A DNA stretch of 64,000 bases from Polaribacter sejongensis (GTDB taxonomy: Bacteria; Bacteroidota; Bacteroidia; Flavobacteriales; Flavobacteriaceae). The DNA lies in contig NZ_CP150667.1 in the NCBI RefSeq assembly GCF_038024065.1, positions 2,859,501 through 2,923,500 on the forward strand. The letters run 5' to 3'. Within the stretch, counting starts at the first letter, position 1, and each line of letters starts with the position of its first letter. Below the pieces are notes generated by a model. The model was not told the origin of the DNA, made no database searches, and was given only the letters and a program-made list of their open reading frames with translations. The translations under genes and the position numbers were made by a program. This document shows positions 13,272 through 61,610 of the stretch, piece after piece.

Positions 13272-13339
13272 CAAACGTATTGTTAATTACTTGTTAAGAG
13301 GGTGGTGATTTGTATCTAAATGGGAGTAATTATGTTACA
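13272..13339 (-). promoter_or_regulatory. PUL regulator motif and -7 element of the symporter
   Basis: On the lower strand, TGTAACATAA-TTAC-TCCC-ATTTAGATAC begins at 13339. TACGTTTG, a perfect TANNTTTG, begins at 13279, 60 nt later. The motif matches the first half of the PUL consensus with few differences. The spacing is about one helical turn longer than the 49 nt seen at most sites. The rest of the 447-bp gap holds the leader hairpin and the terminator at 13443-13482. Confidence 0.6.
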
Positions 13340-13442
13340 TTCTAAATTATTTCCCTCCTTAATTGATTGATTTTTACAAGTTGTTTTAATCAATTTTAAG
13401 ATTCATTTATTTTAATTAAGTTGTAACTTCTATTAGTAGACC

Positions 13443-13482
13443 AAAAAATAAAGGGTAAGAAGTTTTAAACTTCTTACCCTTT
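13443..13482 (-). terminator. Terminator of the LamG-like T9SS gene
   Basis: A perfect 16-bp inverted repeat, AAAGGGTAAGAAGTTT and AAACTTCTTACCCTTT, lies just downstream of the lower-strand stop. On that strand it is followed by ATTTTTTT. It is a strong intrinsic terminator. Confidence 0.9.
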
Positions 13483-13505
13483 ACCAAATTCAAATAATAA
13501 TTATG

Positions 13506-14615
13506 TTATTCTTTAACCACTTTTAAGGTTTTTACTTCTAAATTGTTCGTATCAGTAGCTTTTAATAAATAGATACCAGCTTTTAAATCACTCATATCTA
13601 CACTGTTTGTTACTTTTTGAGAAAGTACTTTTGCACCTAATATATTATAGATTTCTACAGAAGAAACAGTATTTGTAGAAAAGTATAAAACATCTTTTAC
13701 TGGGTTAGGGAATGTTTTAAATGTTTCTTTAGATAATTGGTTAACTGCTAAAGTGCCGCCATTGAATAATTTTGTAACATCTGCATCTGAAATAGCTTTT
13801 TTATAAACTTGAATGTTATCCATTCTAGTTTGTAAATCTGCAATTCTTCCATCAGATCTAAGGCCATTAGTCGTAAATTCTCCAGTAGTAGCGTCTAAAT
13901 GGTCTGTTGTAGCATTATGATCTTGTCCTGTAAAACCTAGATAAATTTTTCTGTTATTCCACTCTCCACTAGCTTGAGCGGCATCTGAAGTACTTGCTAA
14001 AGCTCCATCTACATAAAAACGATACATTTGATCTGAAGCTGTGTATGTTAATACGATATTTTTAAAAACTGGTAGAACGGTACCATATGGAAATCCGCCA
14101 AAAGCTAATCCCATACCACTCGTATATCCACCATTTTTAGAAGTTATTCTATCAGATTTCCATACTCCAGTAGATTCCTCACCTACTATCGTAATAAAAC
14201 CACAACTAGTACTTCCCATTTTGTGACCAAATTGTTTGTAATCTAATCTAAGCGTAAAGTCATCAGCACCCAAAGCATTTTCGTCAATTATAATATGACC
14301 TGTATAATCTCCTTGAAAGGTTTTACTAGAACTATCTGTATCTGTAACAACAGTGTTTGCAAATTGAGCACGGTCAATAATCTGACCACCTGCTCCAGAA
14401 TCACTAACATATTGAATAATATCTCCTCCAGCACTATCAAAAATATACGAGCTTTCTGCAACATACGCTAGAACGTTTTCTGTTGGCTCTACATGTGTTA
14501 CTCCAGTTGGTAGGCTAGATAAAGGGTCAGTACCTTCAAAGTCTATTGTAAATTCTTGTGAAAACCCTAAAAAGCTAACACATAGTAAAGTAAGTAAAAA
14601 GTAATTTTTTTTCAT
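13506..14615 (-). CDS. Secreted LamG/concanavalin-like protein with T9SS sorting domain
   Basis: A 369-residue protein with a signal peptide (MKKNYFLLTLLCVSFLGFSQ), a beta-rich central part (about 25-285) and a C-terminal T9SS type A sorting domain (about 290-369, FKTFPNPVKDVLYFSTN...GIYLLKATD...LKVVKE). The centre has laminin-G/concanavalin traits such as TYTASDQMYRFYVDGALAST and MDNIQVYKKAISDADV. It probably binds or acts on the PUL glycan at the cell surface. No catalytic residues can be assigned. It is transcribed from its own promoter, which carries the PUL motif, and ends at a strong terminator. It could be a surface glycan-binding protein or a polysaccharide lyase-like enzyme; the former is favoured. 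Confidence 0.8.
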   Translation of the reverse strand: MKKNYFLLTLLCVSFLGFSQEFTIDFEGTDPLSSLPTGVTHVEPTENVLAYVAESSYIFDSAGGDIIQYVSDSGAGGQIIDRAQFANTVVTDTDSSSKTFQGDYTGHIIIDENALGADDFTLRLDYKQFGHKMGSTSCGFITIVGEESTGVWKSDRITSKNGGYTSGMGLAFGGFPYGTVLPVFKNIVLTYTASDQMYRFYVDGALASTSDAAQASGEWNNRKIYLGFTGQDHNATTDHLDATTGEFTTNGLRSDGRIADLQTRMDNIQVYKKAISDADVTKLFNGGTLAVNQLSKETFKTFPNPVKDVLYFSTNTVSSVEIYNILGAKVLSQKVTNSVDMSDLKAGIYLLKATDTNNLEVKTLKVVKE

Positions 14616-14643
14616 TTTGTTTAATTTAAATAGTTAATCTATG

Positions 14644-14711
14644 CTAATTTAAAAATAAACAAAATGAGATAGGGCATACTATTGTTTCACAATACGGTAG
14701 GAAATGTTGCA
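14644..14711 (-). promoter_or_regulatory. PUL regulator motif upstream of the LamG-like gene
   Basis: On the lower strand, TGCAACATTT-CCTA-CCGT-ATTGTGAAAC begins at 14711. The first ten bases match the consensus exactly and the downstream half is weaker. A one-mismatch -7 element, TAAATTAG, begins 60 nt later at 14651. Confidence 0.55.
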
Positions 14712-14797
14712 TCTTACTGTAAATTAGGTTATAAGAAGGTAAGTATAGGTGTTCTTATCTGAATTTATGTATGTTTGAACAGTAAAAGTATGTTTTT

Positions 14798-17700
14798 TTA
14801 AGAATCGTTATCCATAAAAGAAGTGTCACTATTTTCAATAGGTTCTTTGTGTTGTTTTATGTACTCTGAAGGACTAATGCCGTATTCTTTATTAAAACAT
14901 TTACTAAAGTACTTTTGATTATTAAAACCTGTTAAGTAGGCAACTTCAGAAATGTACATACTATTTTTCTTTAACAGTTGTTCGGCACGTTTTAGACGTA
15001 TTTTTTTTATAAAATTAACAGGTGTTTCGTTTAGAATAACCTTTAGTTTTCTATATAAATTTGCTCTACTCATACCTACTTCTGCAGCAAGGTATTCTAC
15101 ACTAAATAAATGGTCTCCCATAGAACTCTCTACAATACCGACTAGTTTTTTTATGAATTTTTCATCATTAGATTCTACTTCAATTTCAGAAGGAGCTGCT
15201 GTAATTACTTTACTATATTCGTTTTTAAGCTGTTTTCTAGATACCAAGGTGTTGTTAACTTTCCATTTAACAAACTCCATACTAAAAGGTTTTTCTATAT
15301 AATCATCGGCACCCATAGATAAGCATTCTATTTTTGTGTCTGGAGAATTTTTAGCAGTTAGCATAAAAATTGGAATGCTTTTAATTTTTGGATTTTGTTT
15401 TATTCTTTTTAACATAGAAATACCATCTTCTACTGGCATCATAATATCACTTATAACCAATTTTGGTTGTTCTTTTAAGACAATATCATAGCCTTCTTTT
15501 CCGTCTGATGCTTCTAATATATTATATTGACTTATTAACTCTTCTTTAAGCATTGTTCTTAATTCAGAATTATCATCAACAATTAAAATAGTAGGTTTTG
15601 CACTGTCTTTTGGAGTTGTTTTTTGATCGTATTCGGAAGAAATTTCTTCTATAACTTGAAATTCTGAATTTTTAATAAAGTTTTTTAATAACGGTGTACT
15701 TGTTTTTAAAATTTCATTTTTATGAAACCTTTTTTTACTAATTGGTAGGTAAAAAGTAAATTCGGTAAACTTGTTTTCTTCACTTTCTGCAAGAATAAGT
15801 CCATGGTGTCTTTCTATTAGTTTTTGAACCAATTCCATACCAATTCCTGTACCCGGAATTTGATTACTATAGGGTTTTGTTGCTTGGTAATATCTATCAA
15901 AAATATGTACTAAATCTTTTTCAGGAATACCTACTCCGTTATCTTTTACAATACATTTTATGTATTCGCTTTTAGGAAGGTTTAAATTAGTAAGCTCTTG
16001 GTCTTCTGTAGAAACTATTTTTGTTTCAACACTTATTTCTCCTCCTTCTTGAGTGTATTTGAAAGCATTTGATAATAAATTAAAAAGTATTTTTTCTAAA
16101 ATATCTACATCATACCATGCTTTTTTAGCAGGTTCGTCTGAAGTAAAGTTGTATGTAATATCATAGATTTTTGCAAAATCATTAAAGGCATTTTTTATAA
16201 TGCTTACATCTTTTATAATATCATTTTTAGAGATGTTTAATTTGAACTTTCCTTGGTCAAATTTTCGGATATCCATTATCTGATTTATAAGCCTGTGCAT
16301 TCTTAATGTATTATTGTAAATACGTTGAGAGGTAAGTGGACTTAGGGTAAACTTTTTTTCTTTTACTACTTTTTCTATCGTACCAAGAATAAGTGATAAT
16401 GGTGTTCTTAATTCATGAGAAATGTCTGTAAAAAAGATCATTTTCATTTTATTAAGCTCATTATCCTTTTCTCTACTCACAGTTTCTTTTACAAGGTTTT
16501 GTTTTAATCGGTACCATCTTCTAATTAATTTAATACTGATAAAAATGAGTATTACGCTAATTAGAAAGTAGGTTAAATAAGCCCAATTAGACCTCCAAAT
16601 AGAAGGCATTATTTTAAAAGTTAGTTCTGTTGGTATTTCATTCCAAACACCATCGCTATTAGAACTCTTTACTTTAAATTTATATGTACCAGAAGAAAGA
16701 TCATTGTAATTTGCATTTCTATTAGAAGCACTTGTGTATACCCAATAATTATTTAGACCTTCTAACATATAAGCATACTCATTTTTATATGGAGTTGTTA
16801 AGTCTAAAGAGGAAAAGTTTACTACAATATTGTTTTGATTATAAGGTAGCGTAATTGGTTCTTTTGCATCTACATTTAAGTGATTAGAAATGTGTAATTC
16901 TGAATTTATCTCGTTACTTTTTGTTGCTCCGAGTGTTGCAAAACTTGTGATTACTGTGGTTGGTAAGACACTTTTTTGAAAGAAATAATTGCTATGAACT
17001 GTGTAAAAACCTTCTGCACATCCAAAATAAATGGTGTTTTTACTATGGTTTGAAGCGCTAGAATTAAAACTAAACTGACTTTCTTTAATTCCGTCTTCAA
17101 TTTTAAAGGGAATAAATTTTTCTGTTGTTAAATCAAAACGAACCAAACCATCTTGTGTGCTTAACCAAATATTACCATCGTAGTCTTCTTCTATAGATGA
17201 AATAGTATTAGATAAAACTCCATTTAATTTTCTAAAACTTTTAAAGCTATTTGTTTCTTTAACGTATTGGTTTAAACCGCCACTTCTTGTTCCAACCCAA
17301 ATATTTTTGTTTTTATCTTCATACAAGCTTAAGATTGCATTAGATGTTAACTTATTTTCTATAGTTGGTGTATATTCTTCGATTGTTTCATTGTTTAAAT
17401 CTACTTTATAGAGACCTTCTCCCCTTGTTCCTATCCATAAATTTTGATCTTCAGTTAAAAGAAAAACTGAGGTATGGTTTTTAGCCAGTCTTGTAATAAT
17501 ATCTTGTTTAAATTTAGATATCTCATTCGTGTTATTTATAATATCTACACCACCGTTCCAAAGTGCAACCCAAATTTCGTTTTTATTAATTACTTTAATA
17601 TCAGTAATTTCATTTTTATAAGTTTTTAACTTTGTTAGTGCTAGCTTATTGGTGTCATTTTTATAAGGTTCAGATTCAAATAGACTATTACCTGATGTTA

Positions 17701-18970
17701 TATAAAGTTTGTCCTTCTCATTATTAAATGAGATATGTTTAATATTACGGATTCCAGTTTCTATTTTTGTTGATGTGTTTTTTCTAGTATTATAAGTGTA
17801 AAGACCTGTATTCATACCTACTAAGATATTATTAGGAGCATAAAAGAGTAAGCAATTTGTTAAATCATTAGCTATATTGTTAGGTGCTTTTATTTCGTTA
17901 TACTCAAAAATAGATGTTCTTACTCTGTATTTGTTAATACCTTTTAATGAGCCAATCCAGAGGTTACTATAAGTGTCAAAGACAATAGAAGTAATAAAGT
18001 TATTTTTTAAGTTTCCACTTTCAGATTCTTTAGAGTATCTAACAAAGGTGTAGTTATTATTACTTCTAGTTCCTTTAAACAATCCACTTCTAGTTCCTAT
18101 CCATAAATCTTCATTATTGGGGCTTATTGCTAATGAGGTTAGTGTAGTTTGTTCTTCTATAGAATTCGTAAAGTCAGGGTAATCTTCTATAGTTTCTACA
18201 ACTAAATCTGCTTTGTTATATTTTAAAATAAAAAAACCGTGAGGAGTAATTACAGCAAACCTATTGTTTCCAAGGTCTTTTACACTAACAATTTCTTCTT
18301 TAAAATTTGTCTCTGTGTAAGTGTTATCTTCATTTAAGATAAAAAAACCTTTGTTTGTCGCTATCCAATATCTCCCAAAATCATCTTCTATCAAAGAGTT
18401 TATCTGTGCCTTTAGTTTTGAGGCTGCAATACTGTTTGTATAGTTTTTTGTACTGTTTATTTTTTCAAAGTCTTTGTTACTATCTATTTTAAGTAGTCCT
18501 ATTCCTTTTAATTGAATAAAAATTTTTCCGCTTTTACTTTTGTATAAAACTTCTGAAGTAATGTTTTTATTAAACCCTTTAAACTTATTTTCTTTTCTGT
18601 TAAAGTGAATCAAATAACTCTCACTACCAATCCATAAATTTTTGTGCTCATCTTCTACTATAGAATTAATACTATTATTAGGTAGCGAAAAAGGTTCAAA
18701 AGCATCTTGTTGATAAGACACTAAATTGTACCCATCATATCTAAATAGCCCATTATTACTTCCTATCCATAAGTAACCAATACTATCTTCAAACAACACA
18801 TTTATCTTTTTATTAAATGCAGAACCTTGTATTATTAAGTCATTAAAATAAGGTTCATTTTTTTGTGAGAAACTTATTGTAGCAAAAGTTAGACATATAA
18901 ACAGGAATATTTTTTTTAATAGTGGTTTACAGGTTATAATCTTTGGTAGTTTTATAATCATAAAGTTCAT
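14798..18970 (-). CDS. Hybrid two-component system regulator (HTCS) of the PUL
   Basis: A 1390-residue one-protein sensor and regulator. After a signal anchor (about 20-36, ending ISFSQ) come many two-component propeller repeats (typical unit DSIGYLWIGSNNGLFRYD) to about residue 700. Then follow a Y_Y_Y domain (about 710-785), a transmembrane helix (about 793-815) and a HisKA domain with His852 in ISHELRTPLS. Next are a HATPase (NLLSNAFKYT, DNGVGIP, GTGIGMELV), a receiver with Asp1175 in VISDIMMP, and a C-terminal AraC helix-turn-helix (about 1275-1375, GMSRANLYRKL, YLTGFNNQKYFSKCF). Such proteins sense an oligosaccharide in the periplasm and activate PUL promoters. A shared promoter motif occurs before its own gene and most PUL operons. 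An ATG at 18961 is an alternative start. Confidence 0.95.
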   Translation of the reverse strand: MNFMIIKLPKIITCKPLLKKIFLFICLTFATISFSQKNEPYFNDLIIQGSAFNKKINVLFEDSIGYLWIGSNNGLFRYDGYNLVSYQQDAFEPFSLPNNSINSIVEDEHKNLWIGSESYLIHFNRKENKFKGFNKNITSEVLYKSKSGKIFIQLKGIGLLKIDSNKDFEKINSTKNYTNSIAASKLKAQINSLIEDDFGRYWIATNKGFFILNEDNTYTETNFKEEIVSVKDLGNNRFAVITPHGFFILKYNKADLVVETIEDYPDFTNSIEEQTTLTSLAISPNNEDLWIGTRSGLFKGTRSNNNYTFVRYSKESESGNLKNNFITSIVFDTYSNLWIGSLKGINKYRVRTSIFEYNEIKAPNNIANDLTNCLLFYAPNNILVGMNTGLYTYNTRKNTSTKIETGIRNIKHISFNNEKDKLYITSGNSLFESEPYKNDTNKLALTKLKTYKNEITDIKVINKNEIWVALWNGGVDIINNTNEISKFKQDIITRLAKNHTSVFLLTEDQNLWIGTRGEGLYKVDLNNETIEEYTPTIENKLTSNAILSLYEDKNKNIWVGTRSGGLNQYVKETNSFKSFRKLNGVLSNTISSIEEDYDGNIWLSTQDGLVRFDLTTEKFIPFKIEDGIKESQFSFNSSASNHSKNTIYFGCAEGFYTVHSNYFFQKSVLPTTVITSFATLGATKSNEINSELHISNHLNVDAKEPITLPYNQNNIVVNFSSLDLTTPYKNEYAYMLEGLNNYWVYTSASNRNANYNDLSSGTYKFKVKSSNSDGVWNEIPTELTFKIMPSIWRSNWAYLTYFLISVILIFISIKLIRRWYRLKQNLVKETVSREKDNELNKMKMIFFTDISHELRTPLSLILGTIEKVVKEKKFTLSPLTSQRIYNNTLRMHRLINQIMDIRKFDQGKFKLNISKNDIIKDVSIIKNAFNDFAKIYDITYNFTSDEPAKKAWYDVDILEKILFNLLSNAFKYTQEGGEISVETKIVSTEDQELTNLNLPKSEYIKCIVKDNGVGIPEKDLVHIFDRYYQATKPYSNQIPGTGIGMELVQKLIERHHGLILAESEENKFTEFTFYLPISKKRFHKNEILKTSTPLLKNFIKNSEFQVIEEISSEYDQKTTPKDSAKPTILIVDDNSELRTMLKEELISQYNILEASDGKEGYDIVLKEQPKLVISDIMMPVEDGISMLKRIKQNPKIKSIPIFMLTAKNSPDTKIECLSMGADDYIEKPFSMEFVKWKVNNTLVSRKQLKNEYSKVITAAPSEIEVESNDEKFIKKLVGIVESSMGDHLFSVEYLAAEVGMSRANLYRKLKVILNETPVNFIKKIRLKRAEQLLKKNSMYISEVAYLTGFNNQKYFSKCFNKEYGISPSEYIKQHKEPIENSDTSFMDNDS

Positions 18971-18996
18971 TATTAATAGTTTCTGTACGGGTACTA

Positions 18997-19053
18997 TAAT
19001 ATTATCTATTTTACCTTAATTCTATAGATGCTTAACGGAGGATAAATGTTGCA
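18997..19053 (-). promoter_or_regulatory. PUL regulator motif upstream of the HTCS gene (autoregulation)
   Basis: On the lower strand, TGCAACATTT-ATCC-TCCG-TTAAGCATCT begins at 19053. A poor -7 match, TAATATTA, begins 49 nt later. A second TGCAACAT begins at 19075, 22 bp further upstream, forming a direct repeat. The 516-bp divergent gap to the sulfatase holds further TGCAAC/CGCAAC cores at 19255 and 19372 (upper strand) and near 19336 (lower strand). Confidence 0.6.
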
Positions 19054-19371
19054 TCTTGGTGTTGTATATGTTGCAAAATTAGATTATTTGGGTTGATTTA
19101 TTCCTTTTTTAGTGTTTTTTAATTAATTGAACCACTGATTTACTTCTCTTTGCATGTTTTTCTGTTGCTTTTTTTCTAGTACTTAGCAAATTTTGTTAAT
19201 TAAATTTTGGAAAAAAGTATGAATAAGTCGCTAAATATATAAGGGGTTGTAAAATGCAACAAAATTAGTGTCTGTAAAATGAGACGTTGAATAAGGTTAG
19301 AGGTGTTTGTTGATACTGTACTGGGGTTTTAATGTTGCGTTTTTTGATTTTTTGTGATATTTGGCTAAAAA

Positions 19372-19428
19372 TGCAACATTAAGAGGGTGTTTTGTATATT
19401 TTTAAATATTCTTTTAATAATATATTTG
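19372..19428 (+). promoter_or_regulatory. PUL regulator motif and -7 element of the first enzyme operon
   Basis: TGCAACATTA begins at 19372, and a perfect -7 element, TATATTTG, begins exactly 49 nt later at 19421. The middle of the motif (AGAGGGTGTTTTGTATAT) deviates from the other sites. The fixed spacing supports it as a real site driving the sulfatase operon. Confidence 0.6.
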
Positions 19429-19486
19429 AACCTAGCGAATTTATTTCGTTATGCAAATCAGTAAATTAAAGTAAAATTAAAAGGAA

Positions 19487-20959
19487 ATGAATAAAAGTTT
19501 AAAATTTCTCTCTTTAGCGTTGTTAGTCTTCACTGTGATTTCGTGTGGCTCAAAAAGTTTAACAGAAAAAAGTAGTTTACAAGAGGTAGATACGTCTTTA
19601 AGAAAACCAAACATTATCTATATTTTAGCAGATGATCTTGGTTATGGAGATTTAGGTAGTTATGGACAGACAATGTTTAAAACACCAAATATTGATAAAT
19701 TGGTTACCGAAGGTTTAATGTTTACACAACATTACGCAGGTAATACGGTTTGTGCACCTTCAAGATCTGCTTTATTAACAGGTCAGCATACAGGGCATAC
19801 GCCTGTTAGAGGAAACAAAGAAATTATGCCAGAAGGGCAATACCCAATTCCTGAGAATACATTCACTTTAGCAGAATCGTTAAAAAAAGGTGGTTATGTA
19901 ACAGGTGCTTTTGGTAAATGGGGATTAGGATTTCCTGGTTCTGAAGGAGATCCTGTTAACCAGGGGTTTGATACTTTTTATGGATACAATTGTCAACGTT
20001 TAGGTCATAACTATTATCCAAACCATTTATGGTCTAATAGAGATTCTATTGCTTTAACAGGTAATGATAATGGTAAAAAAGAACAGTATGCTCCTATTTT
20101 AATTCAGGAAGAAGCTATTCAGTTTTTAGAAAAAAATAAAGACACCACTTTCTTTATGTATGTGCCTACTATTATTCCTCATGCAGAGTTAGCTGCACCA
20201 GAACACTTAATAGAAAAGTATAGAGGAAAATATTTACCAGAAAAGAAATTTAAAGGAACCGATAGTGGTCCAGAATTTAGATTAGGTAAATACGAATCTC
20301 AAGACGAATCTCATGCAGCTTTTGTGGCTATGATAGAAGTGATGGATACGCAAGTGGGTGAAATTATGGCTAAAGTAAAGGCTTTAGGTATAGAGGATAA
20401 TACTATTATTGTTTTTGCTTCAGATAATGGACCTCATGAAGAAGGAGGAGCAGATCCAAAGTTTTTTAATAGTGCTGGTCCTCTAAGAGGAGTTAAAAGA
20501 GATTTATACGAAGGAGGAATTAGAGTGCCAATGGCTATTAAATGGCCAGGAAAAATTAAACCAGGCACTAAAACAGATTTAATCTCTGCTTTTTGGGATG
20601 TGTTTCCTACATTTTCTGAAATAGCAGGTGTAGAGGTTCCAGAAAACTTAGATGGTATTTCTTTCTTACCAACATTATTAGACAAACCAGAAGAGCAAGT
20701 ACAGCATGATTACTTGTATTGGGAATTTCACGAAAGAGGAGGAAGACAAGCCATCAGAAAAGGAGATTGGAAAGCTGTAAAATATAATGTTTTAAAGAAA
20801 CCAAATGCACCAATGCAATTGTATAACCTTTCTATAGATATAGGAGAAAAAAATAATATTGCAGATGAACACCCAGAAATTGTTGCTCAAATGAAGGCTT
20901 TGTTTTTAGAAGCAAGAACTCCTTCGGATGTGTTTACTTTTGATCAAGTTTCTTTTTAA
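19487..20959 (+). CDS. Sulfatase, S1 (formylglycine) family, lipoprotein
   Basis: A 490-residue arylsulfatase-type enzyme with a lipoprotein signal (LALLVFTVISCGS). The metal-binding start reads PNIIYILADDLGYGDLGSYG. The catalytic signature is Cys89 in CAPSRSALLTGQHTGH, matching C-x-P-S-R, so Cys89 should be converted to formylglycine. FASDNGPHEEGG and DLYEGGIRVPMAIKWPG supply further conserved active-site positions. It should remove sulfate esters from PUL oligosaccharides, probably facing the periplasm. It opens an apparent operon with the genes at 21070, 23686 and 27023. A sulfatase-maturing enzyme is not in the window. The sulfate position it acts on cannot be told. Confidence 0.93.
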   Translation: MNKSLKFLSLALLVFTVISCGSKSLTEKSSLQEVDTSLRKPNIIYILADDLGYGDLGSYGQTMFKTPNIDKLVTEGLMFTQHYAGNTVCAPSRSALLTGQHTGHTPVRGNKEIMPEGQYPIPENTFTLAESLKKGGYVTGAFGKWGLGFPGSEGDPVNQGFDTFYGYNCQRLGHNYYPNHLWSNRDSIALTGNDNGKKEQYAPILIQEEAIQFLEKNKDTTFFMYVPTIIPHAELAAPEHLIEKYRGKYLPEKKFKGTDSGPEFRLGKYESQDESHAAFVAMIEVMDTQVGEIMAKVKALGIEDNTIIVFASDNGPHEEGGADPKFFNSAGPLRGVKRDLYEGGIRVPMAIKWPGKIKPGTKTDLISAFWDVFPTFSEIAGVEVPENLDGISFLPTLLDKPEEQVQHDYLYWEFHERGGRQAIRKGDWKAVKYNVLKKPNAPMQLYNLSIDIGEKNNIADEHPEIVAQMKALFLEARTPSDVFTFDQVSF

Positions 20960-20993
20960 AAAGAGAAGCTTAAAATAAAATAATAAAATTTTA

Positions 20994-21028
20994 CTTGTAG
21001 TTAGAAATTCTTTGTTTCTAACTACAAG
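20994..21028 (+). terminator. Hairpin between the sulfatase and the next hydrolase
   Basis: CTTGTAGTTAGAAA pairs perfectly with TTTCTAACTACAAG across a 7-nt loop, followed by AATATTTTT. It may terminate part of the transcripts or protect the upstream sulfatase message within the operon, since no separate promoter motif precedes the next gene. Confidence 0.65.
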
Positions 21029-21069
21029 AATATTTTTAAATAGATAAAAATTAATTCTTCTTTCTGTTT

Positions 21070-23661: not shown

Positions 23662-23673
23662 ACCATCACTTAA

Positions 23674-26829
<3,156 letters not shown>

Positions 26830-26844
26830 TAAAAGTAATTTTAT

Positions 26845-26978
26845 AATGAGGTTGTCTAAAAAGGATTAAATCTTGTCATACTGAACTTGTTTCAGTATCT
26901 CAACTTATTGAGGTTTAAACTTCATAAGAATCTGAAATAAATTCAGATTGACAAAACAGCTTTTTAGGTAGCCTCATT
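26845..26978. repeat. MITE-like inverted-repeat element A
   Basis: A 134-bp noncoding element with 18-bp terminal inverted repeats (AATGAGGTTGTCTAAAAA and TTTTTAGGTAGCCTCATT, 3 mismatches). The core TCATACTGAACTTGTTTCAG pairs with CTGAAATAAATTCAGATTGA. It lies between the two GH2 genes. Related copies are at 30139, 51578 and 54320. It has no transposase and would have to be moved in trans. Confidence 0.8.
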
Positions 26979-27022
26979 TTTATATTATAAATATGCTTAA
27001 CTACATTTAAAATTTAAAAGAT

Positions 27023-30357: not shown

Positions 30358-30424
30358 TGCAACATTTGTTACCCCTAATTGATATTTATAGGATCTATTA
30401 AGAATGCTATAATTGATACATTTG
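30358..30424 (+). promoter_or_regulatory. PUL regulator motif and -7 element of the acetylesterase operon
   Basis: TGCAACATTT-GTTA-CCCC-TAATTGATATTTATA begins at 30358 and matches the consensus closely. TACATTTG, a perfect -7 element, begins 59 nt later at 30417. A one-mismatch alternative, TATAATTG, begins 50 nt later at 30408. It drives the genes at 30476, 31985 and 33509. Confidence 0.7.
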
Positions 30425-34756: not shown

Positions 34757-34813
34757 AGCAACATTTTGAATCCCTAAATGAGAAATTTTACTCTTAATAA
34801 TATGTTAATTTTG
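34757..34813 (+). promoter_or_regulatory. PUL regulator motif and -7 element of the SusCD operon
   Basis: AGCAACATTT-TGAA-TCCC-TAAATGAGAAATTTTA begins at 34757. TAATTTTG, a perfect -7 element, begins exactly 49 nt later at 34806. The start codon of SusC is at 34968, giving a leader of about 150 nt. It should drive the five-gene transport operon to 45559. Confidence 0.72.
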
Positions 34814-45896: not shown

Positions 45897-45953
45897 TGTA
45901 ACATTTGTACCCCTTAAGTTGGAAAATGAAAATTTAAAAATGATTTAGCTTTG
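45897..45953 (+). promoter_or_regulatory. PUL regulator motif and -7 element of the fucosidase operon
   Basis: TGTAACATTT-GTAC-CCCT-TAAGTTGGAAAATGAAA begins at 45897. TAGCTTTG, a perfect -7 element, begins exactly 49 nt later at 45946, 32 nt before the start codon at 45978. Confidence 0.7.
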
Positions 45954-49055: not shown

Positions 49056-49112
49056 TGCAACAATTTCACCTCCTAAATGATATTTATAAAGTGAATAGTT
49101 ATTGTAGTTTTA
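49056..49112 (+). promoter_or_regulatory. PUL regulator motif and -7 element; decides the start of the first tandem hydrolase
   Basis: TGCAACAATT-TCAC-CTCC-TAAATGATATTTATAAA begins at 49056. TAGTTTTA, a one-mismatch -7 element, begins exactly 49 nt later at 49105. The site lies inside a longer reading frame from 49055, so that upstream start is rejected in favour of ATG 49136. Confidence 0.68.
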
Positions 49113-51776: not shown

Positions 51777-51833
51777 TGCAACATTTACATCTCTTAAAAG
51801 ATAACTTTAAAACTAATAATTAAAATAACTTTG
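51777..51833 (+). promoter_or_regulatory. PUL regulator motif and -7 element of the second tandem hydrolase
   Basis: TGCAACATTT-ACAT-CTCT-TAAAAGATAACTTTAAA begins at 51777. TAACTTTG, a perfect -7 element, begins exactly 49 nt later at 51826. The 306-bp gap is filled by element C and this site. Confidence 0.75.
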
Positions 51834-54319: not shown

Positions 54320-54452
54320 GGAGGCTGTCTAAAAAGGTTTAAATCTTGTCATACTGAACTTGTTTCAGTATCTTAAATTACTGGATTTCAATCTTCATCA
54401 GAATCTGAAATAAATTTAGATTGACAAATAACTTCCTTTTTAGACAACCTCT
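54320..54452. repeat. MITE-like inverted-repeat element D
   Basis: A 133-bp copy with ends GGAGGCTGTCTAAAAAGG and CCTTTTTAGACAACCTCT (about 1-2 mismatches). It lies at the same place after the second tandem hydrolase as element C after the first, and the sequence on both sides is shared as well. Confidence 0.78.
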
Positions 54453-54518
54453 TTTTTTGAAATAGAGAAAGAGATATTTTTATTAAAATTGAGAATATTT
54501 CCCTCTTTTAGTACTCCT

Positions 54519-54575
54519 TGCAACATTTGTGCCTCCCATGTGATAATTGTAAAGCTTAGATTTTAATTAATTTTG
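54519..54575 (+). promoter_or_regulatory. PUL regulator motif and -7 element of the third tandem hydrolase
   Basis: TGCAACATTT-GTGC-CTCC-CATGTGATAATTGTAAA begins at 54519. TAATTTTG, a perfect -7 element, begins exactly 49 nt later at 54568, 35 nt before the start codon. The 304-bp gap holds only element D and this site. Confidence 0.75.
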
Positions 54576-54602
54576 AAAATATAACTCACTAATATTCAAA
54601 AT

Positions 54603-57032
54603 ATGAAAGCAAAAATTACTTTTCTCTTTTTCCTTCTTTTTACACTAACTCATTTTGCGCAATCTAATACTTGTGATAGTGCAGTAAATGACACGTTTGA
54701 TGGTACAGGAGCTTTACCAACCGAATGGACAGAATACAATACTTCTGGAGATGTAACTGTTGTTTATGGAGAGTTAAAATTCAATCATAGTCAAACAATG
54801 CCTTCTGCGTATAGAACATTTTCAGCTATTTCAAACAATGTAACTTTTTCTTTTGATGTTTCTGCCTCTCGTTCTTATTCAAGTTGTCAGGTAACATTAC
54901 TTTCATCTACTGGTAAGTATGTATCTACCATAGATATTGGTTCTAAGTCATCTAGTATAAAATATGCAACAAGCATTTCTGCAGGTGGTGTTCCTAGTGG
55001 TTTTACAGATGGAGCTTCAAAGGTTACTTTACAAACAAATACTATTTATGTAATTACTGCTAATATTAATTTTACTTCCAAAACAATAGATTACTATGCA
55101 AATGGTGTATTAATGGCGGCAGATGTAGCGTTTTTAGAAACTGCAACGAATGTATCTAAATTAGATATCCAGTCTTTGTTTATGTATAACAATAACGGTA
55201 ATTTTAATTTTGATAATATTACTTTATCTACAACAGATGAAAACCGTTTATCCTTATCTAATGCAGTAATCAATGCTCAGAATTTATTAAATTCTGCCGT
55301 AATTGGTAGTGCTGGTGGAGAGTATTCACAAAATGATTATGATGTATTTTCAACGACTATAGAGGCAGCAGTTGTAATAGAAAATAATTGTGCTGCAAGT
55401 GAATCAGAAATAAACCAGGCAACCGCAGACTTACAAACAGCAATTTCAAATTTTGAAGCTTCTAGTAACCCGTTTGTGCAATCTGTAAGTATTAATGCAC
55501 AAGATACCAAACAAGAAATTCTAATGATAGGTGCAGATATGGAACGTAATGCTGCTGCCTTACAAGATGCTCCAAATAAAGAAGAAATAGTAGATTGGCT
55601 AATAAAAGATATTCCGTTTAATACATTTAGAGTGAAGTATGATAAAACTCAAGAAATGACGGAAGGAAATGTAGATATGTTTGGTGCTTATGGAGAGCAA
55701 GTAAAAAGTATGAAAATGATTTTAGAAGTAAATCCTGAAATAAAGTTTTTTGCTACCATGAAATCAGATTATCATGGGTATAGCCAAGGAAACAGAAATA
55801 ATTTACCAACATTTATTTATGATTATGATAATACAGGAGGTAATGAGTCTGGCTCAAAAGCGTATGATGGTGTTAAGTACGGAAGATTTTTAGCCGATTA
55901 TGTAGAGTATATGAGCAATAATGGTGTGCCAATTACATATTTATCAACTTCTAAAGAGTGGACAGGTGTAATGACAGCTTCTAGAGCTAAAACAGCTATT
56001 GAAAGTTTAATAAGCAATTTAGCTGCTAGAAATATTGAGATGCCATTAATAATTGATTCTGGAGCATGGTCTTTAACAGGAGGTATTAAAACCATTAATA
56101 CGTATGTTTCTAATAATGTAGACCAATATGTACATGCCTATTCGGCACATAAATATGGAGGAAACAATACTTGGGCTCAATATGGGAATGCGTTAAATGG
56201 TGTAAATAAAATGGGAATTAACGATGAAAGTTCTCATGGTGGTGGTGGCCAAACTACAGAAGATGAGGTGCCAATGACCAATGCACTTTCTTGGTATAAA
56301 GACAAGTGTAATAGTTATGCAGGTGGTATACAAGGAGAGTTGTTTTTTGAAGTTTTTATGAAAAATAATAACTTTAATAAGTATTACGCCAGACCAATTG
56401 TTTTTACAGCATCTCAAAACGGTAGACGTATGAGATCATATTACATCATGAAAAAATTTGCAGAAAGTGTACACGATGCTACCTATGTAAAACAGACGCT
56501 TAATAACTTTGGTGATGTAAATTCTATGGCATTTATTAAAGATAATAAATTAACCTTATGGCTAATTAATTCTAGCGAAACTACCTATTCAGATTTTTCT
56601 ATAAACATTAATAATTTTGGATTGAAACAAGGCATGACTATTAAGCAAACAAATTGGCACGAAGCTGCAGCAATTACAGGAGATGAAGACCAGGTTATTG
56701 CAAACGCAGATAATCAATTTAATGTAGGTATAGCACCACTTAGTCTTACTAGTTTTGAGATAGATTTAGACGATGCATTGTCTACAGAAAAGGCTCTTGT
56801 TAATAGAGTAAACATTTATCCGAACCCGGTTTCAGATAAATTAACAATTTCAGATCCAGATACTTTGTTTAAGCAATACATCATTTATAATATGAATGGA
56901 CAAGTAATGAGAAGTGGTAAAATGACAACGAATAAAGTTGGTGTTACTTTACATAATTTATCAACAGGGATTTACCTATTAAAGTTAGACGGAGACACAA
57001 CTTCTGAAACACATAAAATAATTAAAAAATAA
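54603..57032 (+). CDS. Secreted clan-A-like hydrolase, tandem family member 3, T9SS-sorted
   Basis: An 809-residue paralog: signal (MKAKITFLFFLLFTLTHFAQ), N-terminal beta module starting SNTCDSAVNDTF, FIVAR-like spacer, barrel starting EILMIGADMERNAAAL, beta-sandwich and T9SS sorting domain (about 725-809). Likely catalytic glutamates are Glu452 in STSKEWTGV and Glu542 in INDESSHGGGG. The catalytic domain is closest to that of the first family member, with one 84-bp tract differing at a single base, while the N-module is closer to that of the second member. The first residue of the GGDM motif is varied (IGADM). It has its own promoter and a terminator at 57057. Confidence 0.75.
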   Translation: MKAKITFLFFLLFTLTHFAQSNTCDSAVNDTFDGTGALPTEWTEYNTSGDVTVVYGELKFNHSQTMPSAYRTFSAISNNVTFSFDVSASRSYSSCQVTLLSSTGKYVSTIDIGSKSSSIKYATSISAGGVPSGFTDGASKVTLQTNTIYVITANINFTSKTIDYYANGVLMAADVAFLETATNVSKLDIQSLFMYNNNGNFNFDNITLSTTDENRLSLSNAVINAQNLLNSAVIGSAGGEYSQNDYDVFSTTIEAAVVIENNCAASESEINQATADLQTAISNFEASSNPFVQSVSINAQDTKQEILMIGADMERNAAALQDAPNKEEIVDWLIKDIPFNTFRVKYDKTQEMTEGNVDMFGAYGEQVKSMKMILEVNPEIKFFATMKSDYHGYSQGNRNNLPTFIYDYDNTGGNESGSKAYDGVKYGRFLADYVEYMSNNGVPITYLSTSKEWTGVMTASRAKTAIESLISNLAARNIEMPLIIDSGAWSLTGGIKTINTYVSNNVDQYVHAYSAHKYGGNNTWAQYGNALNGVNKMGINDESSHGGGGQTTEDEVPMTNALSWYKDKCNSYAGGIQGELFFEVFMKNNNFNKYYARPIVFTASQNGRRMRSYYIMKKFAESVHDATYVKQTLNNFGDVNSMAFIKDNKLTLWLINSSETTYSDFSININNFGLKQGMTIKQTNWHEAAAITGDEDQVIANADNQFNVGIAPLSLTSFEIDLDDALSTEKALVNRVNIYPNPVSDKLTISDPDTLFKQYIIYNMNGQVMRSGKMTTNKVGVTLHNLSTGIYLLKLDGDTTSETHKIIKK

Positions 57033-57056
57033 ATTCAAGTTTTTTTTTAAATATAG

Positions 57057-57082
57057 AGCACCTTTTTTAAGGTGCTTTTTTT
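57057..57082 (+). terminator. Terminator of the third tandem hydrolase
   Basis: AGCACCTT pairs with AAGGTGCT around TTTT and is followed by seven T. It is a short, strong intrinsic terminator. Confidence 0.9.
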
Positions 57083-57154
57083 ATAAAAACACAAATCGTA
57101 ACCAATTCAATTGTATTGCCATTTTGCTATGTCTCAATCTTATTTTGGTTAGTT

Positions 57155-57211
57155 TGCAACATTTTCATCTCTAATTCGAGAATTATAAACTGAATACTTT
57201 TAATAATTTTG
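57155..57211 (+). promoter_or_regulatory. PUL regulator motif and -7 element of the SGNH esterase; decides its start
   Basis: TGCAACATTT-TCAT-CTCT-AATTCGAGAATTATAAA begins at 57155. TAATTTTG, a perfect -7 element, begins exactly 49 nt later at 57204. This overlaps the upstream in-frame ATG at 57209, so translation must start downstream, at 57263. Confidence 0.75.
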
Positions 57212-57262
57212 ATGAAATCAATTAGCAACATTTTTTCTTCAATAAAAATAAAACGAAACATA

Positions 57263-59026
57263 ATGAAAAAACAAAATTACATTCTTCTTCTTCTTCTTCT
57301 TTGTCTAATAAATATACAATTTGCCTTTGGACAATATCCAAATCTAATAGAAAATATTCAATTTGAAGATAATATTGATGGGACTTGGACTTTAGGGCTT
57401 AACTCAGGATCAGAAGCAACTCTTGCAAGTATTGTAGAGCCTAACTGGCAAAATGTAGATATGCCTAGAGGGAAGGTTTCTGTATCTATTGCAAATGGAA
57501 TGGAGTCCGTTTATATTACAAGTGACAATAAATTTGTATTACACGCAGGCGATATATGTACTGTTAGATATTACTGTAAATCAACAGTAGCCGGATCTGT
57601 ATTAAAATCTGTATTACATCGTATAGATTCTCCTGAAGGGGAGGAAACTTCTATTGATATTAGTGAGATGGATTTAAAAACATCTTGGAAAAACGAGCAA
57701 TTAAATGTTACAATTCAAGAGTCTGGTACTTATGAGCTTAGGTTAAATACGGGTGCAACGGTGGCAGATTATACCTATAATAATATCTCTCTTAAAGTAA
57801 AAGATTATGAGGCTGTTGGTGCCCCTAAAATAAATTCATTTTCTATTGCAATAGAACAACAAGGAGGAGAAGGAGAACAAGGAGTTAACCAAATTATAGG
57901 ACGAGTAGATGCTTATGATGCTGAAGGTGATGATTTTACTTATGAGTATAATCTTATTTATGGAAAAGGAAGCATTACACCAATTGATGAGACTTCATTT
58001 ATTTACAATAAAGATGGTTTTGGCGTTGTTTATATAAAAGTAACCGTTAAAGATGTCCATGGAAATATTAGAAGTAAAATTCAAGAATATATTGTACAAG
58101 GTTTTGAAATTAGCGAACTTTATTTTAATGAAGACGTTTGGGATTTAGTAATGGAAATAAATGGATACAGTAATCATGCTTCCTTTGATTTTCCGGAGAA
58201 CAATCCAGAATTACCAAATGTATTATTAATGGGGAATTCAGTATCTATAGGATATACACCTTTTGTTAGAGAACAATTAGAAGGCGTAGCCAATGTGTAC
58301 AGAATTCCTGATAATGGAGGAAGCACTTTAGATATGTTTGAAAACCAAGAACTTTGGTTAGGAGATACACATTGGGATGTAATACATTTTAACTGGGGTC
58401 TTCATGATTTAAAATACTTACTTAATAATAATCTTAATTTAAACGGAACGCAAGTTGTTCCGGTAGATGAGTATGCTGTTAATATGGATTCAATTGTAAA
58501 AATATTACAACCCACAGCAGATAACCTTATTTTTGCAACTACTTCTTATGTACCATCAGGAGCAGGTGGTAGAAAACGTGGTGATGAAGTAACATACAAT
58601 ACAGCTGCCTTATCTGTAATGGCTAATTACCCAGAAATTCTTATTGATGACCAGTTTACAACAACATTAAACAACTTATCTGAACAAAACACAAATGATG
58701 TGCATTTTAATTTAGCAGGTCGTGAACGTCAGGGAATACAGGCTGCAGAAAAAATTAAAGAAGCATTGGCAAGTTTATCAACTAAATCAATAACAAGTGA
58801 TGCCTCTAATAATTTTTATTATGTAAAAACTAAAGAGGCATTATTGGTAAAAACTAAAACAGAAATTGCAGAATTATTGATTTATAATATCAATGGTAGC
58901 GTGGTTAAAACAATAAAAAGTCCAAACAATCAAATAAGTCTTTCTGGTTTGCCTCAAGGGATATTTATTATTGTTGCAACATCTGTTGAAGGGGATGCTA
59001 TCACTCAAAAAATATTAAAAAATTAG
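57263..59026 (+). CDS. SGNH-type carbohydrate esterase with N-terminal beta modules and T9SS sorting domain
   Basis: A 587-residue protein from ATG 57263 (signal MKKQNYILLLLLLCLINIQF). An N-terminal carbohydrate-binding-like sandwich (about 25-185) and an Ig/PKD-like domain (about 190-285) precede the esterase domain (about 305-495). The block I serine is Ser326 in LLMGNSVSIGY. Block II is the Gly in PDNGGST and block III is HFNWGLHDL. The C-terminal acid/base region reads TNDVHFN (Asp479, His481; a strict D-x-x-H reading places Asn at the acid position). A T9SS sorting domain (about 510-587) ends the protein. It probably removes acetyl or similar esters from the polysaccharide outside the cell, complementing the SASA-type esterase at 30476. 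Confidence 0.82.
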   Translation: MKKQNYILLLLLLCLINIQFAFGQYPNLIENIQFEDNIDGTWTLGLNSGSEATLASIVEPNWQNVDMPRGKVSVSIANGMESVYITSDNKFVLHAGDICTVRYYCKSTVAGSVLKSVLHRIDSPEGEETSIDISEMDLKTSWKNEQLNVTIQESGTYELRLNTGATVADYTYNNISLKVKDYEAVGAPKINSFSIAIEQQGGEGEQGVNQIIGRVDAYDAEGDDFTYEYNLIYGKGSITPIDETSFIYNKDGFGVVYIKVTVKDVHGNIRSKIQEYIVQGFEISELYFNEDVWDLVMEINGYSNHASFDFPENNPELPNVLLMGNSVSIGYTPFVREQLEGVANVYRIPDNGGSTLDMFENQELWLGDTHWDVIHFNWGLHDLKYLLNNNLNLNGTQVVPVDEYAVNMDSIVKILQPTADNLIFATTSYVPSGAGGRKRGDEVTYNTAALSVMANYPEILIDDQFTTTLNNLSEQNTNDVHFNLAGRERQGIQAAEKIKEALASLSTKSITSDASNNFYYVKTKEALLVKTKTEIAELLIYNINGSVVKTIKSPNNQISLSGLPQGIFIIVATSVEGDAITQKILKN

Positions 59027-59122
59027 CATTTGTTTTTCGATAAATTATCGAATAGGTAAAAAACAGTTTGTATTGAACTGCCGCTAAAAAGTTAGACAGA
59101 TTATTAAAAAATTAATTTATAC

Positions 59123-59151
59123 AATGAGCTCGATATTTTATCGGGCTCATT
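59123..59151 (+). terminator. Hairpin after the SGNH esterase gene
   Basis: AATGAGCTCGATA pairs with TATCGGGCTCATT (one G-T pair) around a very short AT-rich loop, about 100 nt after the stop codon. The following sequence, CCATTT, is a weak T-tract, so termination strength is uncertain. Confidence 0.65.
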
Positions 59152-59643
59152 CCATTTAATAACTGTAACACAAACCCATAATTTGTAAGTTGATTAACTT
59201 AAATTAAACTATGTTAAACAAACAAATCGGCACGAAATAGCAGTAATAATAGGTGATAAAAAATAGATTCTAATAAATGCAAATAATCTATTTTATTTAG
59301 ATACCACCCATTTAGTATTAGCTCTTTTGTAATAGATACAAACAACAACTTATCTACTGGCTATTAATAAACCAACAAAATTAATGTTTACCATAATTTA
59401 GTTCTATATAAATTGATTCATCCCCAAATACTTTATTCAAACAACACATGGTTTTATGGACAAGAATACAACTCATTCTATTGTATATTATATTAGTTCA
59501 GATATTTTCTGCTTTCTCTTTTTTAAAACAGAAAAAAAAGTTATTTATGCAACTTATCTACCCTGTTATTGAGATAATTAAAATAAAAACAAACAATATC
59601 TTTATTTTGAATTTCTTACTAGATCCTAAAATTAACTTAAACA
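59152..59643. other. Noncoding gap before the GH43-like gene, without a clear PUL motif
   Basis: AT-rich sequence with no repeat element and no convincing copy of the PUL motif. TGTAACACAA at 59164 is the nearest match, but it lacks the CYCC part and has no -7 element at 49 or 59-60 nt. A reading frame from 59448 overlaps the next gene and looks spurious. Confidence 0.45.
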
Positions 59644-61287
59644 ATGAAAAACGCAATATTACAACCGATATTATGCTTAGTAACAACACTTCTATCTTTA
59701 TATAGCTGGACTCAAAATTCAATCAATCCAATTCTAAGGAATGTTGATGAAGGTTTTTTATATGCAGCAGATCCAGCAGCAGAAGTATACAACGGTAAAG
59801 TTTATGTTTATTGTTCTCACGATCAACCCGATGCAACGGGTTACTCTAGTATGCAAGATTATATGGTATTAGAATCCGAAGACATGATTAACTGGGTAAA
59901 TCATGGTGTCGTATTAAAACCACGAGAATACTCTTGGGCTAGTGGACAAATGAACGCCCCTGATGTAGCCTATAAAGATGGTTGGTATTATTTTTACTTT
60001 CCTTATGATAAAACTCATGTAGGAGTAGCTAAAAGCCGTAATCCAGAAGGTCCATGGGAAGAGGCAGTTTCTGATAAAATTACAACTATTTTTGATCCTA
60101 CAGTGTTTGTTGATGATGATGGGCAGGCGTATATTTATGGTAGTGATAACAAAGTAAATATTGGTGATGAAGGTAGGCATATCTATGGTGCCAAACTAAA
60201 AGACAATATGACAGAGTTAGACAGTGATTGGGTACGATTAACAGAGGAAACTGTAGACGAAGCTGCTCACATTTTTAAACGTAATAACATTTATTATTTA
60301 AATGCTCGTGTTGGTTCAGTTACCAAATACTGGATGTCGGATAGCCCATTGCCAAAATACGCTACTCTAGCTGGTGAGCTTGCTCCAAATGCTCCAGGTG
60401 CTCCAAATCATGCATCGGCAATTGAATTTAATGACCAATGGTACTTTTTTTATCAACGAGCAGATGTGAACAGTGGTACCTATCATCGTAGATCAGCAGG
60501 TTTTGAAAAAATGTATTTTAATGACGATGGAACAATTCAACCTATAATTTACTCTTTAGATCCAAGTTATATTAATAAAGAAGATATCGTTCCTGATTAT
60601 ATATATTATCCAGGTGACACTTTGTATTTTAAAAATGTTGACAATTTATTCCCTGCTGATGGGTCTGGTGTAAAAGTTGAATCAGCAGGAAATATAGGTT
60701 TTACTAAAAACCAAAACTATGTTGAATTTGATTCCATTAACATACCAACTCCTGCACAATACCTTTTAACTTTAAATGTTTCGCACAAAGTTCCTTCAAG
60801 TTATAATACAGGAATCTTACAAGTTTTTGCAAATGACACTAAAATTGGATCTCTAGAAATTAATGGTACTGGTAATTGGAATGACTTTGTTGATTATACG
60901 GGGACACTAACTACAACAGAAAGTTTAAAAAATGCTACTTTAAAGTTTCTTTTTGATGTAAACGATGATCAACTTTATCTCGGAAACTTTTTATCTGCAA
61001 AATACGAGCTAATTCCGTGTACAGAAACCAACCTAAGTAACAAAACCTTCAACCTTTCTTCCATACAAGTTACTCCTACTTTAGTTAGTGAAATTTTAAA
61101 CATAAGTAACATAGAAGAAAATACTATTACTTATAAAATATACAATTTAGAAGGTAAATTATCACATCAGGGTGTTTTATTAAAAGACCACTCTGAAATA
61201 AATGTAGCGTTTTTAAAAAACGGAGTTTATTTAATTAAATTAATGAGCAACGATAATTCTTTAGTCAAAAAATTTGTTAAAATTTAA
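59644..61287 (+). CDS. GH43-like glycoside hydrolase with CBM6-like module and T9SS sorting domain
   Basis: A 547-residue secreted protein (signal MKNAILQPILCLVTTLLSLY). The five-bladed propeller (about 28-310) shows the usual acid triad: Asp43 in YAADPAAEVYNGKVYVY (base), Asp151 in IFDPTVFVDDDGQAYIYG (pKa modulator) and Glu206 in VDEAAHIFKRNNIYYL (acid). A beta-sandwich resembling CBM6 (about 330-450) and a T9SS sorting domain (about 465-547) follow. GH43 members release arabinose, xylose or galactose, and specificity is not readable here. Unlike most PUL genes around it, it lacks the shared promoter motif, so it may be expressed differently or by read-through. Confidence 0.88.
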   Translation: MKNAILQPILCLVTTLLSLYSWTQNSINPILRNVDEGFLYAADPAAEVYNGKVYVYCSHDQPDATGYSSMQDYMVLESEDMINWVNHGVVLKPREYSWASGQMNAPDVAYKDGWYYFYFPYDKTHVGVAKSRNPEGPWEEAVSDKITTIFDPTVFVDDDGQAYIYGSDNKVNIGDEGRHIYGAKLKDNMTELDSDWVRLTEETVDEAAHIFKRNNIYYLNARVGSVTKYWMSDSPLPKYATLAGELAPNAPGAPNHASAIEFNDQWYFFYQRADVNSGTYHRRSAGFEKMYFNDDGTIQPIIYSLDPSYINKEDIVPDYIYYPGDTLYFKNVDNLFPADGSGVKVESAGNIGFTKNQNYVEFDSINIPTPAQYLLTLNVSHKVPSSYNTGILQVFANDTKIGSLEINGTGNWNDFVDYTGTLTTTESLKNATLKFLFDVNDDQLYLGNFLSAKYELIPCTETNLSNKTFNLSSIQVTPTLVSEILNISNIEENTITYKIYNLEGKLSHQGVLLKDHSEINVAFLKNGVYLIKLMSNDNSLVKKFVKI

Positions 61288-61313
61288 CACATCCTTAAAA
61301 ATTAGGAATTAAA

Positions 61314-61356
61314 AAACTAATCAATAACTATGGTAACATAGTTGTTAATTAGTTGT
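61314..61356 (+). terminator. Hairpin after the GH43-like gene
   Basis: AAACTAATCAATAACTATG pairs with CATAGTTGTTAATTAGTT around GTAA with a few mismatches, about 30 nt after the stop. The long stem and following TTTAATG suggest a terminator. The rest of the 441-bp gap holds the PUL motif at 61554 and a leader of about 110 nt. Confidence 0.65.
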
Positions 61357-61553
61357 TTAATGCAAAATACCAACACCCTTTTAACACATTTATTCACCGC
61401 TTCTTATAATAAAAACTCGCCAACAGCACCCTCAAAAAACAACTTACCTATCTCTTATATAATTTTGACTTCGGTATCTTAAAAAACATTCCTGTGCTGT
61501 TTTTATTTAATAAATCATAGTAAAAATTATGTTTACTTATTTATATACCTACT

Positions 61554-61610
61554 TGCAACATTTATATCTCTTAAATGAGAATTATAAAATAAATGGTTTT
61601 GATAATTTTG
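61554..61610 (+). promoter_or_regulatory. PUL regulator motif and -7 element of the GH128-like gene
   Basis: TGCAACATTT-ATAT-CTCT-TAAATGAGAATTATAAA begins at 61554 and is the best match to the consensus. TAATTTTG, a perfect -7 element, begins exactly 49 nt later at 61603. Confidence 0.78.

Follow-up and report, generated by a model that had tools for sequence, protein, structure and literature searches.

A direct repeat at a fixed distance from the -7 element marks the promoters of a polysaccharide utilization locus in Polaribacter sejongensis and points to its hybrid two-component system as the probable regulator

RESULTS

A 64,000-nucleotide stretch of the Polaribacter sejongensis genome (NZ_CP150667.1, positions 2,859,501 to 2,923,500; here called the window) carries a polysaccharide utilization locus (PUL) in which susC/susD and carbohydrate-active enzyme genes, recognized by Pfam, adjoin the gene of a hybrid two-component system (HTCS). 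This HTCS combines in one polypeptide, and in the standard domain order, a periplasmic propeller sensor (Reg_prop), Y_Y_Y, HisKA, HATPase_c, a receiver domain (REC; Response_reg), and an AraC-type helix-turn-helix (HTH; HTH_18/AraC), and its PDB relatives are 4a2l and 12aw. An original prediction, made from the letters of the window, had described a motif upstream of about twelve genes or operons, lying, at eight upper-strand sites, 49 nt before a -7 element, and had read it as the mark of a PUL regulon under control of the HTCS. Our analysis confirmed the shared motif and its fixed distance to the -7 element and lends support to the proposed regulon. The features are as follows; numbers preceded by a plus sign are offsets from the first base of a site.

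14798..18970, minus strand: HTCS gene, encoding the presumed motif binder
19046..19075, minus strand: promoter of the HTCS gene, with the direct repeat TGCAACAT-N14-TGCAACAT, period 22
19372..19406, plus strand: site 5' of sulfatase, fn3, GH2, and GH2 genes (19487-30088), with the variant centre GGGTG
19421..19428, plus strand: -7 element TATATTTG, at +49 of site 19372
30358..30392, plus strand: site 5' of SASA esterase, sulfatase, and GH29 genes, with the -7 element one helical turn further, at +59, and a one-mismatch -7 also at +50
30417..30424, plus strand: -7 element TACATTTG, exact, at +59 of site 30358
34757..34791, plus strand: site 5' of the first SusC/SusD pair; -7 element TAATTTTG at 34806
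45897..45931, plus strand: site 5' of a GH29 gene; -7 element TAGCTTTG at 45946
49056..49090, plus strand: site 5' of the gene at 49154 for a protein secreted by the type IX secretion system (T9SS); -7 element TAGTTTTA at 49105, with one mismatch
51777..51811, plus strand: site 5' of the T9SS-secreted protein gene at 51863; -7 element TAACTTTG at 51826
54519..54553, plus strand: site 5' of the T9SS-secreted protein gene at 54603; -7 element TAATTTTG at 54568
57155..57189, plus strand: site 5' of gene 57281-59026 (57209 if the start is TTG); -7 element TAATTTTG at 57204
59548..59582, plus strand: site 5' of a GH43 gene (59644); -7-like TATCTTTA at 59597 (+49, one mismatch)
61554..61588, plus strand: site 5' of the Glyco_hydro_cc gene at 61729 and the genes that follow; -7 element TAATTTTG at 61603
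13305..13339, minus strand: weak candidate 5' of an SSF symporter gene (11430-13058), with TACGTTTG, an exact -7, at +60
14677..14711, minus strand: weak candidate, a one-mismatch repeat of period 22, 5' of the gene for a T9SS-tail protein (13506-14615), with TAAATTAG at +60, one mismatch

All twelve anchors of the original prediction exist, and eight are strong by matrix: in leave-one-out scoring, sites 30358, 34757, 45897, 49056, 51777, 54519, 57155, and 61554 ranked 3 to 9 among about 128,000 positions. A ninth strong site, 59548 on the plus strand, had been missed and reached 19.2 bits in a both-strand matrix scan before its inclusion. Site 19372 failed the leave-one-out scoring (-0.6 bits, with 63 positions equal or better), its resemblance lying mainly in the first half of the motif (box 1) and the -7 element. 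On the lower strand, 19053 scored 12.3 bits and 13339 scored 7.2 bits, while 14711 fell outside the top 40. The last two are weak and are kept as candidates only; the repeat to which 19053 belongs, as its second half (box 2), starts at 19075, and no -7 element lies 49 nt from 19053. The 35-letter consensus as first written proved over-specified, with only 2 window sites within 3 mismatches of it. The 49-nt rule, in turn, held: an exact TANNTTTG lies at +49 of sites 19372, 34757, 45897, 51777, 54519, 57155, and 61554, and 49056 differs by one mismatch. The remark that the sites lack a -33 TTTG is likewise true (2 of 24 have one) but does not discriminate, as 30 of 226 other promoters have one, and it was rejected as an informative sign.

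The motif is built as a direct repeat with a period of 22 bp. Its clearest form is at the promoter of the HTCS gene, where two copies of TGCAACAT stand at 19075 and 19053; the motif does, as had been claimed, precede the HTCS gene itself. The original description is corrected here to a 22-bp direct repeat with two spacings to the -7 element. Box 2 of the target promoters (TGAGAATT) reproduces box 1 in degraded form. The exact repeat GCAACAT-N15-GCAACA occurs only twice in the genome, at the HTCS promoter and at 2,927,963, equivalent to window position 68462 and past the window end, where TATATTTG follows at +59 and the genes downstream on the same strand encode DUF2961, sulfatase, GH43, GH95, GH29, SASA, and DUF6786 domains. 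Allowing one mismatch gave 8 matches, 14711 on the minus strand among them, compared with 23 in a reversed control; such repeats are therefore no richer than in the control, so that 14711 stays a candidate and only the two exact matches are supported. Apart from the promoter of the HTCS gene, the regulon has ten well-supported promoters in the window and one more past its end. Two extra GCAACA words, at 19255 on the plus strand and 19338 on the minus strand, were left out; they have no positional counterpart in two other Polaribacter loci (L158, L159).

Specificity was assessed over the whole 4,504,946-base genome with a profile (R1) built from the nine sites 30358, 34757, 45897, 49056, 51777, 54519, 57155, 59548, and 61554. 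Among the best 150 of 8908 first-look candidates, the nine training sites scored 22.1 to 32.6 bits and the next match 16.7 bits; the latter, at 3,962,100, was rejected because it lies inside a coding frame. An exhaustive search with a pattern of conserved columns, allowing up to 3 mismatches, returned 7 matches, 6 of them in the PUL, and none in the reversed control; sites 34757, 45897, and 59548 are too divergent for this pattern. The single match outside the PUL, 114657 on the minus strand, has 3 mismatches. The original prediction had named occurrence genome-wide before unrelated genes as grounds for abandoning it, and by both searches the motif is nearly PUL-confined: it belongs to its cognate PUL and is no genome-wide promoter feature. 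This bears on whether the motif might itself be part of the core promoter, recognized by an alternative sigma factor or as an extended element with no activator site. The rigid spacing to the -7 element would suit such a promoter, but the -7 element, TANNTTTG, is that of ordinary sigma-A promoters, the motif keeps to a single locus, and the second spacing is one helical turn off, as for a separately bound protein; we regard this explanation as highly improbable, the least credible of those considered.

Conservation was examined in 397 sampled genomes of the family, where an HTCS ortholog (E<=1e-250, 48-64% identical) was found in 16, P. sejongensis included. Under stricter filters, and among the best 17 candidates per genome, R1 matched at E<=0.01 in 19 of the 397 genomes: in 8 of the 16 with the HTCS (7 of 15 without our own) and in 11 of the 381 others, each of these with one match. 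Two or more matches occurred in 6 of the 16 HTCS genomes and in none of the 381 others. In the seven relatives, at least one match shares a contig with the HTCS gene, at distances of up to about 87 kb; G121 and G348 each have one extra match elsewhere.

The spacing was then evaluated with motif columns 0 to 34 only, in 36 stretches, totalling 701,799 bases, that surround the HTCS genes of 15 relatives. At 15 bits or more, 23 matches were recovered in 10 of the 15 relatives. An exact TANNTTTG stood at +49 in 11 of them, against a base rate of 0.00063 per position, and one with at most 1 mismatch in 20, the next best offset having 3; the only other exact offset was +59, seen once. At 11 bits or more, the 15 relatives gave 33 matches and the reversed sequences 3. 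By coordinates, 22 of the 23 matches have a homolog of one of the window's genes no more than about 250 nt downstream (GH2, SusC, sulfatase, F5/8-domain, fn3, Glyco_hydro_cc, and once the HTCS itself); for the exception (G169, 20679), none is listed within 1.8 kb. The +59 match, at 3743839 in G121, precedes a sulfatase/GH29 pair homologous to the genes after 30358 and is a probable counterpart of that site, so the longer spacing of this promoter may be inherited. In several relatives, box 2 was seen by eye at 21 instead of 22 with a -7-like element at 48; hence the distance from box 2 to the -7 element seems to be the quantity held constant.

Among the named relatives, Polaribacter sp. DS7-9 and P. 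vadi have an HTCS 74-75% identical over the best segment, and Mariniflexile fucanivorans one 61% identical. In M. fucanivorans, each of the three matches of at least 15 bits is followed at +49 by an exact -7 element; the variant promoter of the 19372 type is conserved, as seen by eye, in the two Polaribacter loci (L158, L159). Upstream of the P. vadi SSF gene, no word like that at 13339 was found. Record L160, which is the G162 contig, was counted once.

These comparisons also bear on duplication, by which paralogous genes would have been copied together with their upstream DNA, leaving similar sites under no functional constraint. Some sites would fit such a history: 51777 and 54519 are clear duplicates with 93% identical upstream flanks, 57155 and 61554 have 56% identical downstream flanks, the paralogous genes 49154, 51863, and 54603 are 57-64% identical to one another, and 49154 and 51863 share about 280 N-terminal residues with the product of gene 61729. 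Yet the flanks are below 50% identity in 39 of 45 site pairs and reach it in 6 (medians 37% and 40%), and relatives with 48-64% HTCS identity keep both motif and +49 before GH2, SusC, sulfatase, and secreted-protein genes. Because site and spacing are conserved without the flanks, duplication is largely refuted as an explanation and strikes us as very unlikely.

Of the DNA-binding proteins that might recognize the motif, the HTCS encoded at 14798-18970 is favoured. The residues GMSRA.LYRK and TGF.NQ.YF.KCF of its HTH are common to 19 HTCS orthologs and differ in nine full-length paralogs of its own genome (two weaker HTCS-like genes were left out of this comparison). The word GCAACAT is repeated at the HTCS promoter with all 7 letters at 22 bp in 7 of the 19 orthologs, counting that of P. 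sejongensis. One more has the repeat at 23 bp, and two match in 6 of 7 letters, giving at least 6 of 7 letters in 10 of 19. The link between motif and HTCS is drawn from their co-occurrence in the sampled genomes, the repeat at the HTCS promoter, and recognition helices conserved among orthologs and different in paralogs. The motif could instead belong to another DNA-binding protein, with the HTCS merely co-located; besides partial ones and other AraC-type proteins, nine full-length relatives of the HTCS are encoded in the genome, and the tie to this HTCS is drawn from sequence. On the other hand, clusters of the motif are found where the HTCS ortholog is encoded and share its contig, the repeat stands 5' of the HTCS gene itself, a Pfam scan of the proteins encoded in 11.4-64 kb of the window gave no second regulator, and the repeat structure matches HTCS motifs as described in the text of PMC3878776. 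We consider another binder unlikely, though the least so of the alternatives.

Several observations weigh against control by the HTCS. No R1 match was found among the best 17 candidates in 8 of the 16 HTCS genomes, and 5 of the 15 relatives (G011, G212, G235, G236, G382) have no match of at least 15 bits, with GCAACA words near the HTCS gene in 4 of these five. No such match was found within 10-kb flanks of the two Polaribacter loci either. At the HTCS promoter, 4 of 19 orthologs (G323, G348, G207, G235) have no GCAACA word on the HTCS strand, and the repeat there lacks a -7 element at +49. Box 2 of most target sites resembles box 1 only partly. The divergent HTCS/sulfatase promoter (19372 type) has GGGTG or GGTG at its centre where the nine strong sites have CYCC or a near match to it, a centre common to P. 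sejongensis, P. vadi, DS7-9, M. fucanivorans (GGTG; L161), G002, and G383 for which a simple repeat model does not account. No site is evident by matrix scan in the 193-nt gap that precedes the second GH2 gene, at 27023. Finally, among 79 named loci one unrelated record (L187, Bacterium BMS3Abin04) has a single 19.5-bit match.

Two side observations concern the locus itself. Three tandem genes (49154-51556, 51863-54298, and 54603-57032) encode the T9SS-secreted paralogs of about 800 amino acids and 57-64% identity, each with its own motif site; no catalytic domain was recognized in them by Pfam, and they are a candidate new polysaccharide-active family. The PUL also extends at least 20 kb past the window (L079:4462-19865), with DUF2961, three sulfatase, GH43, GH95, GH29, SASA, and DUF6786 genes; a very large locus for a fucose-containing sulfated glycan is suggested.

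DISCUSSION

We propose, with a probability of roughly 0.88, that the sites form the operator-promoter architecture of one HTCS regulon, in which an HTCS dimer would bind the repeat over the -33 region and activate transcription. The AraC-type output domain would occupy a tandem pair of half-sites that are spaced by 22 bp and lie on the same side of the helix. Box 1 is TGCAACATTT with CYCC after it; box 2 is its degraded copy, TGAGAATTAT. With the end of box 2 about 14-17 nt 5' of the -7 element TANNTTTG, the dimer would cover about -61 to -27, and box 2, in the place of the -33 element, would bring the activator into contact with the sigma factor or RNA polymerase. Some promoters would insert one additional helical turn (+59/60), and the HTCS gene would be autoregulated through its own near-perfect repeat. 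Class II activators of the AraC family bind tandem half-sites that overlap the upstream core element, contact sigma factor or polymerase, and activate transcription. The sites described here overlap or abut that element with fixed spacing and helical phase (+49, and +59/60 at a few), and they show the direct repeat of about 21 bp between half-sites known from HTCS operators, with period 22 (21 in some relatives, by eye). That 49 and 59/60 differ by one helical turn fits a protein that has to face the polymerase. On the scale of Flavobacterium psychrophilum, for which the text of PMC9723704 places the -7 box at -12 to -5, the motif spans -61 to -27, with the start of box 2 near -39.

In Bacteroides HTCSs, a REC S/C-H pair keeps the DNA-binding domain inactive as part of an S/CHIP-DK inhibitory interface, from which, as the text of the same account notes, some natural HTCSs deviate (PMC11253607). 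This interface, typical but not defining, is not complete in the P. sejongensis HTCS, which reads KSIP instead of S/CHIP. The S/C-H pair is found in 1 of 19 orthologs, compared with 7 of the 9 paralogs compared in its own genome. All 19 orthologs have the I and the P of the motif as well as the K of the first recognition helix, and 14 of 19 have D in the column taken for it. Since this clade lacks the pair that forms the latch in the account cited (PMC11253607), its members may bind DNA more readily without phosphorylation.

The generality of the geometry was surveyed in 204 other TANNTTTG promoters, from loci around HTCS-like genes in many Bacteroidota, as repeated 8-mers with at most 1 mismatch and starts from -65 to -38. 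Period 21 was found in 8 and period 22 in 3, or 11 together, compared with 10 over the other 19 periods and with 60 shuffles that averaged 1.08 and never exceeded 4; the 11 overstates independence, with a 29-bp element of L227 counted twice and L208 palindrome-like. Ten-mers agreed (6 and 6 at periods 21 and 22; 0-5 at others), and 7-mers gave too few repeats. With 9-mers there was hardly agreement (9 and 6, others 1-6, and equally many further upstream), which speaks against a phylum-wide geometry. The repeat starts spread from -48 to -62. As a separate observation, the L227 matches (9854 on the plus and 14214 on the minus strand) are the one 29-bp element in opposite orientations, one copy 5' of a Parabacteroides HTCS gene and the other 5' of the gene that flanks it on the opposite side. 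Of 27 upstream regions at other HTCS loci of P. sejongensis, one showed a clear 22-bp repeat before a -7 element: at 384153 on the minus strand (L065), TAATACCCCC/TATTACCCCC lies about 55 nt 5' of TAATTTTG at a PUL promoter and is probably the operator of a different HTCS. An exact 49 was accordingly rejected as a general rule; the exact distance depends on the individual HTCS or on the way in which the repeat is anchored. A geometry shared across the phylum is suggestive only. We put forward tentatively, at rather less than even odds, that HTCSs across Bacteroidota share a geometry in which a 21-22 bp direct repeat begins some 48-62 nt upstream of the -7 element, either in a locked helical phase with it or a turn farther away, and takes the place of a weak -33 box, and that the clade described here, without its S/C-H latch, may bind unphosphorylated. 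If such a rule were general, assigning HTCS targets would become a sequence search, and the action of activators on weak -33 promoters would be directly testable by insertion of half and whole helical turns.

Comparable arrangements are known from proteobacterial class II activation, where XylS at Pm and AraC at I1-I2 use tandem half-sites about two turns apart over the upstream core element; here, by contrast, the promoter is of the Bacteroidota sigma-A type with -7/-33 boxes, and a membrane sensor kinase is fused to the activator. Closer relatives are the HTCS regulons of Bacteroides, whose motifs are described in the text of Ravcheev et al. (2013, PMC3878776) as direct repeats averaging 21 bp with several operons per regulon, predicted for 16 of the 36 HTCSs of B. 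thetaiotaomicron. The regulon of P. sejongensis resembles these in its AraC-type HTCS, the direct repeat before PUL operons, and its several operons, and differs in its motif (TGCAACATTT...TGAGAATT), its 22-bp period, and its occurrence in Flavobacteriaceae; in the text of that account, neither a fixed -7 distance nor a second spacing one turn off is reported. For the arabinan HTCS BT0366, a REC-HTH fragment shifts the promoters of its PUL in gel assays, and a supplementary figure legend has predicted BT0366 sites and -7 boxes marked together (PMC5061871). The P. sejongensis regulon and its geometry were delimited from sequence, and the geometry is kept in other genera. HTCS operators outside Bacteroides are little described in the literature searched, and in the open-licence PMC literature, supplementary files apart, no stated fixed distance from an HTCS site to the -7 element was found, nor any mention of a second spacing or of such conservation over genera. 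Overall, the regulon belongs to the known direct-repeat kind of HTCS regulon, to which it adds a fixed -7 distance, a second spacing one turn off, and conservation over genera.

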